In this document: positions 38,133-41,302 of the stretch, piece by piece
Layout of the letters: each line of letters opens with the position of its first letter
Position numbering within the stretch: position 1 is the first letter of the stretch
Assembly (NCBI GenBank): GCA_029289325.1
Contig: JARFTV010000003.1
Coordinates: forward strand, 85,523 to 149,522
Reading direction: 5' to 3'
DNA from: Alphaproteobacteria bacterium
GTDB taxonomy: Bacteria; Pseudomonadota; Alphaproteobacteria; Rhodobacterales; Rhodobacteraceae
Length of the DNA: 64,000 nucleotides
Translations under genes and position numbers: made by a program
Notes under the pieces: model-generated
Databases searched by the model: none
Told to the model about the DNA's origin: nothing
The model's input: only the letters and a program-made list of their open reading frames with translations

Positions 38133-39788
38133 ATGGCCAGCTATCAATACGTCTATCACATGGAGAACGTCTCCAAGACCTACCCCGGCGGCAAGAAGTG
38201 TTTCGAGAACATCCATCTCAACTTCCTGCCCGGCGTGAAGATCGGCGTGGTCGGCGTCAACGGCGCGGGGAAATCCACGCTGCTCAAGATCATGGCCGGC
38301 ATCGACAAGGACTTCAAAGGCGAGGCCTGGGCCGCGAAGGGCGCCAAGGTGGGCTATCTCGCGCAGGAGCCGCAGCTTGACCCGACCCTCGACGTCAAGG
38401 GCAACGTGATGCTGGGCGTCGCCGACAAGCAGGCGATCCTGGATCGCTACAACGAACTGGCGGTGAACTACTCGGACGAGACGGCGGACGAGATGGCGGC
38501 GCTTCAGGACAAGATCGACGCCGAGAACCTGTGGGAGCTTGAGGCGACCGTCGGCGTGGCGATGGACGCGTTGCGCTGCCCGCCGGACGATGCCGACGTC
38601 ACCACTCTGTCGGGCGGCGAACGTCGCCGGGTCGCGCTGTGCCGGCTGCTGCTGGAAAAGCCCGACATGCTGCTCTTGGACGAACCGACCAACCACCTGG
38701 ACGCGGAATCCATCGCCTGGCTGCAAAAGCACCTGATCGACTACAAGGGCACGATCCTGATCGTGACCCACGACCGCTATTTCCTGGACGACATCACCGG
38801 CTGGATCCTCGAACTCGACCGCGGCCGCGGCATCCCCTACGAGGGCAACTATTCCGCCTGGTTGGATCAGAAGGCCAAGCGGATGGCGCAGGAAGCGCGT
38901 GAGGACAAGTCCAAGCAGAAGGCGCTGGAAAAGGAACTGGAGTGGATCCGCTCTGGCGCCAAGGCGCGTCAGGCGAAGGGCAAGGCCCGGATCGCCCGCT
39001 ACAACGAGATGGCCGGCCAGACCGTGCTGGAACGTGCGACCACCGCGCAGATCATCATCCCGAACGGCGAACGCCTCGGCAACAAGGTGATCGAAGTCGA
39101 GGGCCTGAAGAAGGCGATGGGCGACAAGCTTCTGATCGAGGATCTGTCCTTCACCGTGCCGCCGGGTGCCATCGTCGGCGTGATCGGCCCGAACGGCGCC
39201 GGCAAGTCCACGCTGTTCCGCATGATCACCGGGCAGGAGCAGCCCGACGCCGGGACGATCAAGCTGGGCGAGACGGTGAAGCTGGCCTATGTCGACCAGT
39301 CGCGTGACGCTCTCGACCCGAACAAGAACGTCTGGGAGGAAATCTCCGGCGGGGCCGAGATCATCCACCTGGGCGACATGCAGATGAACAGCCGTGTGTA
39401 CACGGGCGCGTTCAACTTCAAGGGCACCGACCAGCAGAAGAAGGTCGGCCTTCTGTCGGGCGGGGAACGCAACCGCGTCCACATGGCCAAGCTGTTGAAA
39501 TCGGGCGGAAACGTGCTGCTGCTCGACGAACCGACCAACGACCTGGACGTGGAAACGCTGCAGGCGCTCGAAGCCGCCATCGAGGATTTCGCCGGCTGCG
39601 CGATCATCATCAGCCACGACCGCTTCTTCCTTGACCGGCTTTGCACCCACATCCTCGCCTTCGAGGGCGACGCCCATGTGGAATGGTTCGAGGGCAACTT
39701 CCAGGCCTATGAGGAAGACAAGGTTCGCCGCCTCGGCCCTGACGCGCTGGAGCCGAAGCGGGTCAAGTACAAGCGCTTCGCGCGCTAA
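38133..39788 (+). CDS. ettA: energy-dependent translational throttle protein EttA (ABC-F ATPase)
   Basis: 551 residues with two ABC domains and no membrane part. Walker A motifs are GVNGAGKST (about 42) and GPNGAGKST (about 354), signatures LSGGERRR and LSGGERNR, and Walker B LLLDEPTNHLD and LLLDEPTNDLD. The linker contains the ABC-F arm and KAKRMAQEAREDKSKQ. EttA binds the ribosomal E site and slows initiation when ADP is high. The sequence YQYVYHMENVSKTYPGGKK at the start is characteristic. Followed by a strong hairpin. Confidence 0.95.
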   Translation: MASYQYVYHMENVSKTYPGGKKCFENIHLNFLPGVKIGVVGVNGAGKSTLLKIMAGIDKDFKGEAWAAKGAKVGYLAQEPQLDPTLDVKGNVMLGVADKQAILDRYNELAVNYSDETADEMAALQDKIDAENLWELEATVGVAMDALRCPPDDADVTTLSGGERRRVALCRLLLEKPDMLLLDEPTNHLDAESIAWLQKHLIDYKGTILIVTHDRYFLDDITGWILELDRGRGIPYEGNYSAWLDQKAKRMAQEAREDKSKQKALEKELEWIRSGAKARQAKGKARIARYNEMAGQTVLERATTAQIIIPNGERLGNKVIEVEGLKKAMGDKLLIEDLSFTVPPGAIVGVIGPNGAGKSTLFRMITGQEQPDAGTIKLGETVKLAYVDQSRDALDPNKNVWEEISGGAEIIHLGDMQMNSRVYTGAFNFKGTDQQKKVGLLSGGERNRVHMAKLLKSGGNVLLLDEPTNDLDVETLQALEAAIEDFAGCAIIISHDRFFLDRLCTHILAFEGDAHVEWFEGNFQAYEEDKVRRLGPDALEPKRVKYKRFAR

Positions 39789-39791
39789 GGC

Positions 39792-39818
39792 GCAGGGTGG
39801 GGTTCAGCCCCACCCTGC
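39792..39818 (+). terminator. hairpin after ettA
   Basis: Perfect 11-base arms GCAGGGTGGGG (39792-39802) and CCCCACCCTGC (39808-39818), beginning 4 bases after the ettA stop codon. No clear T-run follows. Confidence 0.7.
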
Positions 39819-39838
39819 CTCCCCCCGACCGGGACTCT

Positions 39839-39864
39839 GGAACCAACCGCCCGAGACAGGCGTT
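39839..39864 (+). promoter_or_regulatory. EcfG-type promoter GGAAC-N17-CGTT for the DUF3309 gene
   Basis: GGAAC (39839-39843), a 17-base spacer and CGTT (39861-39864), 50 bases before the ATG at 39915. Exact match to the EcfG consensus. Confidence 0.62.
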
Positions 39865-39914
39865 TCTTCGCCGACCGGGGCCACTCCGGCCCCCTTCAGC
39901 GAAAGGCGCATCTC

Positions 39915-40073
39915 ATGACGGTCGGCACAATTCTCCTCATCATCCTGATCCTCGTCCTGATCGGAGCGCTTCCGACCTGGGGCTATTCCAGCACCTGGGG
40001 CTACGGGCCCTCGGGCGTGGTCGGGGTGATCGTCATCATCCTGCTGATCCTGGTTCTCACCGGCCGGATCTGA
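39915..40073 (+). CDS. DUF3309 small membrane protein (52 aa)
   Basis: 52 residues: MTVGTILLIILILVLIGALP, then TWGYSSTWGYGPSG, then a second hydrophobic run GVVGVIVIILLILVLTGRI. This is the DUF3309 pattern: two membrane segments joined by a Trp/Tyr/Gly loop. The family is widespread in alpha- and betaproteobacteria with no known function. A perfect GGAAC-N17-CGTT promoter lies 50 bases upstream, and the next tiny gene has its own, so this is probably a general-stress gene. Confidence 0.85.
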   Translation: MTVGTILLIILILVLIGALPTWGYSSTWGYGPSGVVGVIVIILLILVLTGRI

Positions 40074-40081
40074 CCCGGACG

Positions 40082-40107
40082 GGAACCCCGCCCCTTCAGG
40101 CGACGTT
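40082..40107 (+). promoter_or_regulatory. EcfG-type promoter GGAAC-N17-CGTT for the 25-residue gene
   Basis: GGAAC (40082-40086), a 17-base spacer and CGTT (40104-40107), 33 bases before the ATG at 40141. It begins 9 bases after the DUF3309 stop codon, so the two neighbouring genes each carry the same promoter type. Confidence 0.65.
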
Positions 40108-40140
40108 ACCGAGGCAAGCAACCATCCGAAGGAGAACCCA

Positions 40141-40218
40141 ATGAAAGGCGCCCTCGCCTGGCTGATCGGGATTCCGATCCCGATCATCATCATTCTCTAC
40201 CTGCTCGACGTCTTCTGA
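40141..40218 (+). CDS. 25-residue hydrophobic membrane peptide
   Basis: The reading frame encodes MKGALAWLIGIPIPIIIILY followed by LLDVF. A perfect AAGGAGAA ribosome-binding site lies 6 bases before the ATG. One membrane segment with an IPIPIIIIL core makes up nearly the whole peptide. Short proteins with this IGIPIPI pattern recur in alphaproteobacteria. Its own EcfG-type promoter 33 bases upstream and the strong ribosome-binding site argue that it is a real gene. Function unknown; it may work with the DUF3309 protein. Confidence 0.78.
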   Translation: MKGALAWLIGIPIPIIIILYLLDVF

Positions 40219-40251
40219 CGTCTCCCCCGGGCGGCCGTCGGCGGCCCGGGG

Positions 40252-40872
40252 TCAGCCCAACAGACCCAGCACCTCATCGGCCAGATCCGCGACCTCGGCC
40301 GCCGCCATGCCCCGCGCCTCGGCCGCGCCAAGGCCCTGGCCCAGCGTTTCGGCATAGACAACCCGCTGGCCGAGTTTTGCTTCCGCAACTCCGCCGACTG
40401 CCCCAGCCGCCTCGGCCACCTCGGCGCCAAGTCGCGTCCCGGCCTTGACCCGGTTCAGCACGATCACCGCCCGCCGCCCCTCGCGTCCGATCAGGTCGAA
40501 TACGCCGTCGGTCGCCCAGAGATCCACCATCGACGCCGCCACCGGCACCAGCACCAGATCCGCCTCGCGCAGCGCGGGACGCAGGTCGGCATCGACCTTC
40601 GGCGGCGTGTCCACGATCACCACATCGGCCTGCTTCTTCAGCTTCTCGCATTCATAGCCGACGCCCCAGGCCGAGGCGGTAGAGAACTCCATCCCCGCCT
40701 CGCCCAGCCGTTCGCGCCGGGCCATGAACCAGCGGCCCAGACTGCCCTGCGGATCGGTATCCAGCAGCGCCACCGTCATCCCCCGCCGCCGGAACTCCAC
40801 CGCCAGGTTCACGGCCAGCGTCGTCTTGCCCGACCCGCCCTTCTGCTGCGCCACGGTCACGACCTTGCCCAT
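40252..40872 (-). CDS. ParA-family ATPase, solo copy
   Basis: 206 residues from [20 protein letters not shown]. The deviant Walker A KGGSGKTT is at 11-18, [13 protein letters not shown] at about 39-51, and VDTPPK is the Walker B. There is no ParB gene or recognisable parS next to it, and the protein lacks the N-terminal extension of chromosomal ParA, so it belongs with short MinD/ParA ATPases that position other cargo. The ATG follows a GGGGGA. Divergent from the cold-shock gene. Confidence 0.88.
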
Positions 40873-41095: not shown

Positions 41096-41302
41096 ATGGC
41101 CAAGGGCACCGTGAAATGGTTCAATGAAACCAAAGGCTACGGCTTCATCGCCCCGGAAGGCGGCAAGAAGGACGTGTTCGTCCACATCACCGCGCTGGAG
41201 CGTGCTGGCCTGCGTGGCCTGAAGGACGGCCAGCCGGTCACCTTCGACATCGAAGCCGGCCGCGACGGGCGTGAATCCGCGACCAACCTCGCGCTCGCCT
41301 AA
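41096..41302 (+). CDS. cold-shock domain protein (CspA family)
   Basis: 68 residues, one OB-fold cold-shock domain that binds single-stranded RNA and [18 protein letters not shown] contains RNP1 (KGYGFI) and [13 protein letters not shown] holds RNP2 (VFVHI). AGGAGAA precedes the ATG by 9 bases. The long leader and the terminator at 41317 make it a single-gene transcript. Confidence 0.96.

Follow-up and report, generated by a model that had tools for sequence, protein, structure and literature searches.

The window analysed here, a stretch of 64,000 nucleotides from a bacterium of the family Rhodobacteraceae, contains two very small genes in tandem on the + strand, each with an EcfG-type promoter sequence of its own, which raises the question of whether both products belong to the general stress response. 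The first gene (39915–40073, +) encodes a DUF3309 protein of 52 aa predicted to form a two-helix hairpin, and the second (40141–40218, +) is an ORF of 25 codons whose product, MKGALAWLIGIPIPIIIILYLLDVF, is a probable single membrane span. The exact motif GGAAC-N17-CGTT is present at 39839–39864 (+), with 50 nt between CGTT and the ATG of the DUF3309 gene, and again at 40082–40107 (+), 33 nt before the ATG of the 25-aa gene; both motifs, their N17 spacers and the two distances are exactly as an earlier note on this DNA had given them. The -35 box of the second promoter begins 9 nt after the DUF3309 stop codon ends. By eye, GAAAGG at 39901–39906 (+) is a possible ribosome-binding site of the DUF3309 gene and AAGGAG at 40129–40134 (+) a probable one of the 25-aa gene, and similar purine-rich stretches, uncounted, were visible upstream of relatives of the latter. 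Because no terminator-like site was found in 39700–40350, read-through from the DUF3309 promoter into the 25-aa gene is also possible.

On the upstream side, an ORF that we take to encode an ABC-F ATPase ends at 39788, while downstream a ParA/MipZ-type ATPase ORF on the opposite strand and a cold-shock protein gene follow; the cold-shock-domain protein (PF00313) is encoded at 41096–41302 of the window. ABC-F-like and cold-shock-like ORF clusters, which include out-of-frame ORFs, recur near the 25-aa gene in 17 and 16 of the compared loci, respectively, suggesting a location long shared within the family.

Counted over both strands of the window, exact GGAAC-N16/17-CGTT occurred four times, compared with an expectation of 0.85 (sd 0.94), and four or more matches were reached by only one of 100 shuffles; the earlier estimate of about one chance match in 64 kb agrees with this expectation. 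In the whole genome, 82 matches were found vs. 69 for the reversed pattern, so that one match on its own says little; the excess over the genome is slight and the motif alone is weak evidence, and motif counting within the own genome was discarded as uninformative. Since the motif by itself proves little, relatives were compared. The earlier note had also called two motifs within 270 bases at promoter distance strong evidence; the strength lies in that same-strand pair and above all in conservation in relatives.

Sixty-five loci with a 25-aa copy and sufficient flank were reduced to 53 distinct Rhodobacteraceae loci, and 41 of these carried the exact motif upstream (N17 in 29, N16 in 12). Among the 41, the CGTT-to-ATG distance was 30–36 nt in 31, a C followed GGAAC in 38, and a G preceded CGTT in 39. 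A wider set of 79 Rhodobacteraceae and 53 other entries, comprising the best matches per search plus chosen extras rather than a random sample and excluding the decayed L024 and loci without a readable ORF, gave 45 exact (within 120 nt) and 9 one-mismatch motifs (within 65 nt) in 66 distinct Rhodobacteraceae loci, and 18 exact and 17 one-mismatch motifs in 52 distinct loci of other families. No motif at ≤1 mismatch was found in 12 of the 66 and 17 of the 52 loci, respectively, and random 91-nt stretches of the peptide loci had a motif at ≤1 mismatch in 3.2%. The locus of Tabrizicola aquatica RCRI19 (L047) has both genes with both exact motifs, and a NepR-positive congener, G004, encodes an identical peptide without a motif in front of it, while carrying one upstream of its DUF3309 gene.

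The 25-aa ORF itself had no match at E ≤ 1 in either Pfam or NCBIfam, a search of a plasmid collection with a consensus-like peptide query returned no match, and no report of the peptide was found in the main texts of the literature searched. The peptide was found in 28 of 61 relatives searched at E ≤ 1 and is 100% identical over 25 aa in nine genomes, the own one included. From 41 close distinct copies of the ORF, pS and pN were determined to be 0.41 and 0.063, a pN/pS of 0.15. On average, the commonest base had a share of 0.90 across the ORF vs. 0.44 beyond the stop, and of 0.94, 0.97, and 0.79 at the three codon positions. M1, W7, G10, P12, and P14 were invariant in an alignment of 20 diverse members, and the second proline is absent from some more distant ones. 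Profile matches extend class-wide, and at E ≤ 0.01 a single match was obtained in each of 39 among the 40 peptide-positive genomes of the family sample described below.

The earlier identification of the 52-aa ORF as DUF3309 was confirmed by a PF11752 match over residues 3–52 (E 5.3e-22, 78.1 bits vs. a gathering cut-off of 22.3). AlphaFold2, run from 18 sequences, predicted helices at 3–21 and 35–48 with a short strand pair between them (pLDDT 85.6 for the best model and 68.2–73.8 for the remaining four; pTM 0.57). DUF3309 is present in 17 of 149 family genomes. In copies collected by sequence pattern from the fetched loci, leaving out a probable L012 copy and nine loci (L142, L149–L156), the exact motif lay 47–51 nt upstream of all nine distinct own-genus copies, all of them beside the peptide, and within 50 nt of six of 14 copies outside the genus; the L067 copy has it at 136 nt. 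In other genera, DUF3309 beside the peptide stands before it, after it or abutting it (L055, L060, L067, L074, L079), and the two genes are often apart. No report of EcfG control of DUF3309 was found in the literature searched.

The own genome encodes the regulatory system that such promoters would require. A NepR match (PF18557, E 1.7e-14) was located at G000:C77:8831-8935, with a PhyR gene divergent from it (NF006623, 354.9 bits, cut-off 240) and an ECF sigma factor gene directly downstream, the latter recognized by a general model named 'RNA polymerase sigma factor' (NF009198, 287.9 bits, cut-off 270), and GGAAC-N17-CGTT lies 33 nt upstream of nepR. Both ecfG and phyR, whose absence the earlier note had named as speaking against its proposal, are thus present, adjoining nepR. 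Further, 41 of the 82 genomic motif sites, in 40 stretches and mostly selected for a C after GGAAC, were inspected, and ten ORFs downstream of such sites were run against Pfam as fragments. Matches over the cut-off were obtained for a PRC-barrel protein (motif at 25 nt), a ferritin-like protein (29 nt), Ku (24 nt), and topoisomerase IB (32 nt); a BrkB-like protein 23 nt behind a motif matched below the cut-off, and four of the ten had no Pfam match. Many other inspected sites fall inside open frames and may be chance matches. A sigma-factor ORF, presumably RpoH (L196; Pfam sigma-70 region 1.2), likewise follows a GGAAC-N17-CGTT site in the own genome.

Joint presence with NepR was assessed at three levels. 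Within the genus, 19 of 32 genomes had both NepR and the peptide, two the peptide only, one (G017) NepR only, and ten neither (Fisher p 1e-5; this and the following co-occurrence p values ignore shared ancestry). The two peptide-only congeners, G025 and G030, are 81% and 88% complete and have exact motifs, with no NepR match. Congener G002 (80% complete), counted as peptide-lacking, carries a divergent copy with an exact motif and no NepR match, and G003 has a decayed copy (L024:1381-1620) that lacks an ATG, departs from the family sequence beyond residue 17 and is without an exact motif; no NepR match and no PhyR over the cut-off were found in G003. Both congeners are among the ten with neither. 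In the family sample of 394 genomes from 393 genera, with a peptide cut-off of E ≤ 0.01, NepR was present in 34 of 40 peptide-positive genomes (two of them, G146 and G265, being partial, weak matches) vs. 154 of 354 others (p 4e-7), so that 154 genomes have NepR without a peptide match. In a class sample of 385 genomes, the corresponding figures were 36 of 60 vs. 30 of 325 (p 4e-17).

The motif was distributed in the same direction. Loci were available for 37 of the 40 peptide-positive family-sample genomes, and 36, one per genus, were scored, L080 having no readable ORF. In the 30 NepR-positive loci the motif was exact in 18, had one mismatch in seven, and was not found in five, while it was absent in all six NepR-negative genera (p 0.0002 when exact and one-mismatch motifs are pooled, 0.019 when exact ones alone are counted), and no PhyR over the model cut-off was found in those six genomes either. 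The split was weaker among the class loci, with a motif in 14 of 18 with NepR and six of 11 without; the NepR profile, being short, may fail to detect distant members. The family-sample genome G334 (L079) has DUF3309 with an exact EcfG motif, and neither a NepR match nor a PhyR over the cut-off was found in it. The motif tracks the stress system in relatives, the exceptions being G002, G025, G030, G334, and the weak split outside the family. The earlier note had proposed looking for peptide and promoters in close relatives; both are there, and in genomes that yielded no NepR and PhyR they are reduced or missing.

Based on the stress genes in the genome, the conservation of motif and peptide, and the co-occurrence with NepR, all of which support the earlier candidacy of the two products for a small-protein part of the general stress response, we consider it probable (roughly 0.77) that both are EcfG-induced inner-membrane micro-proteins serving as small accessory proteins within that response. 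As described in part of a published account, phosphorylated PhyR sequesters NepR and frees EcfG (PMC8103513). Stress would accordingly phosphorylate PhyR and so draw NepR off EcfG, and RNA polymerase carrying EcfG would start both transcripts, each gene from its own promoter. The 52-aa DUF3309 protein would form a two-helix membrane hairpin and the 25-aa protein would cross the membrane once, with W-x-x-G-x-P-x-P as its core and the N-terminus probably inside. Both would insert in the inner membrane and bind a membrane partner under stress, the candidates being each other, a stress-regulon membrane protein, and a sensor kinase. From computed evidence, namely promoter-motif conservation, coding conservation, co-occurrence with NepR, and occasional adjacency to stress genes and to DUF3309, we infer that the two genes are transcribed and translated in vivo and that their products enter the membrane, with the topology and accessory role given above.

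This adjacency was examined in genomes with both the peptide and NepR. In six of 36 such class genomes (G770, G802, G536, G700, G777, and G509), spanning four families, the peptide is encoded within about 5 kb of a NepR match, the match being below the cut-off in G509 and just at it in G770. In the family sample, G339 has the peptide near a second NepR match, on a contig other than that of its phyR, so that at least seven genomes, counted among the NepR places listed for the family sample, have the peptide close to a NepR match. G700 and G777, both of another family, have the peptide gene 5′ of phyR in the same orientation: some 30 and 380 nt separate it from the longest phyR ORF, and the exact motif stands 34 and 47 nt upstream of the peptide gene. 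An EcfG homologue is found 1.4–2.6 kb from the peptide in G802, G536, G509, and G339; the G770 stretch, which runs up to the end of its contig, yielded neither PhyR nor EcfG. At the peptide of these seven loci, the motif was exact in G700, G777, and G339, had one mismatch in G509, and was not found in G770, G802, and G536; the NepR-near loci without it include L109, L110, and L111. The consulted part of PMC8103513 describes phyR and nepR-ecfG as divergent units, each under promoters dependent on the general stress response. The 25-aa peptide belongs to a class-wide family, encoded in some genomes near nepR, ecfG or phyR, a case that the earlier note had understated.

Other neighbours were seen around the peptide gene. 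In G700 and G777, second peptide copies (L117:1008-1382 (-), L118) stand divergent beside a response-regulator-like ORF, which in L117 has receiver and PhyR model matches, all below the cut-off. Elsewhere, a peptide gene preceded by an exact EcfG motif faces a convergent PAS-HisKA_2 histidine kinase ORF (L091:1604-2809 (-)). In six genomes, a membrane-like protein of 224–309 aa is encoded in the same orientation as the peptide gene and 3–39 nt away from it (L126:1579-2505, L107:1597-2493, L104:1606-2448 (-), L123:1664-2335 (-), L127:1588-2499, and L134:1655-2548). It had no match in Pfam (four of the six run) or NCBIfam (three of the six run), and a single-sequence search of the own genome, which shows little, gave none.

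The position of these genes bears on a different and rather unlikely reading, in which the 25-aa peptide would be a feedback modulator of the stress response acting on a membrane sensor kinase of PhyR, as MgrB does on PhoQ. Its place 5′ of phyR with an exact motif in G700 and G777, the nearby ecfG homologues in G802, G536, G509, and G339, the second copies beside a response-regulator-like ORF, the convergent HisKA_2 kinase of L091, and the co-occurrence with NepR would all fit. However, such proximity of the peptide to a NepR match was seen in only seven genomes, induction by EcfG does not imply regulation of EcfG, and 25 aa are too short for the periplasmic domain that MgrB has. A bolder form of this reading, likewise rather unlikely, would make the protein a class-wide feedback component of the general stress response, produced from EcfG promoters, in some lineages directly ahead of phyR, and acting in the membrane upon HRXXN kinases or further membrane components of the pathway; its basis is gene position only.

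Less likely still, the 25-aa peptide might be membrane-active in the manner of a type I toxin, lowering membrane energy under stress. It shares a short hydrophobic span with known type I toxins, but within 39700–40350 no Rfam family scored above its gathering score (one hit was far below) and no sigma-70-type site was found on either strand, and the single match per genome in 39 of 40 family-sample genomes, together with strong cross-genus conservation, also argues against it; an antisense RNA of a new type might be present all the same. It is very improbable that the ORF matters only as a leader ORF for a downstream gene: phyR follows it in the same orientation in G700 and G777, but its amino-acid sequence is conserved, its neighbours vary between genera, and the next large ORF in the window is on the opposite strand. 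It is barely credible that the motifs arose by chance and the 25-aa ORF goes untranslated, and chance motifs were rejected once relatives were compared, for although the nine-base motif is common (82 genomic sites vs. 69 reversed), an exact motif at similar distance recurs in dozens of distinct loci, the ORF is under selection, and it is associated with NepR.

The two genes offer a testable entry to a little-known small-protein part of a stress response common to much of the bacterial class, with a 25-aa family tied to the stress system by promoter motif, joint presence and, in some genomes, gene position. Both EcfG targets and small membrane proteins have been described before; the 25-aa family is without a Pfam or NCBIfam match. 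The closest known system is the EcfG (sigma-EcfG/SigT/RpoE2) regulon, with which the two genes share motif, spacer, and distance in a genome whose own PhyR-NepR-EcfG locus has the motif before nepR. In Sphingomonas melonis, putative EcfG motifs are given in the consulted part of PMC6599016 at 30 nt for Ku, 24 nt for topoisomerase IB, and 27 nt for a PRC-barrel protein, compared with 24, 32, and 25 nt in the own genome; the main text of that paper, as consulted, contains neither 'DUF3309' nor 'unannotated', but several of its targets are labelled 'hypothetical protein'. Rhodobacter sphaeroides has phyR plus an ecfG-like gene, and the importance of its PhyR under membrane stress, as stated in the abstract and one section of PMC5830050, fits an inner-membrane accessory role; neither small protein is mentioned in those two parts. 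For the 25-aa protein, MgrB of enterobacteria, which published excerpts describe as a 47-aa inhibitor of PhoQ (PMC2789325, PMC8404706), offers a likeness by description and gene neighbourhood only: the one is 47 aa and the other 25 aa, and each may be regarded as a tiny membrane protein made by a stress regulon whose kinase it, in the case of the 25-aa peptide, might touch.
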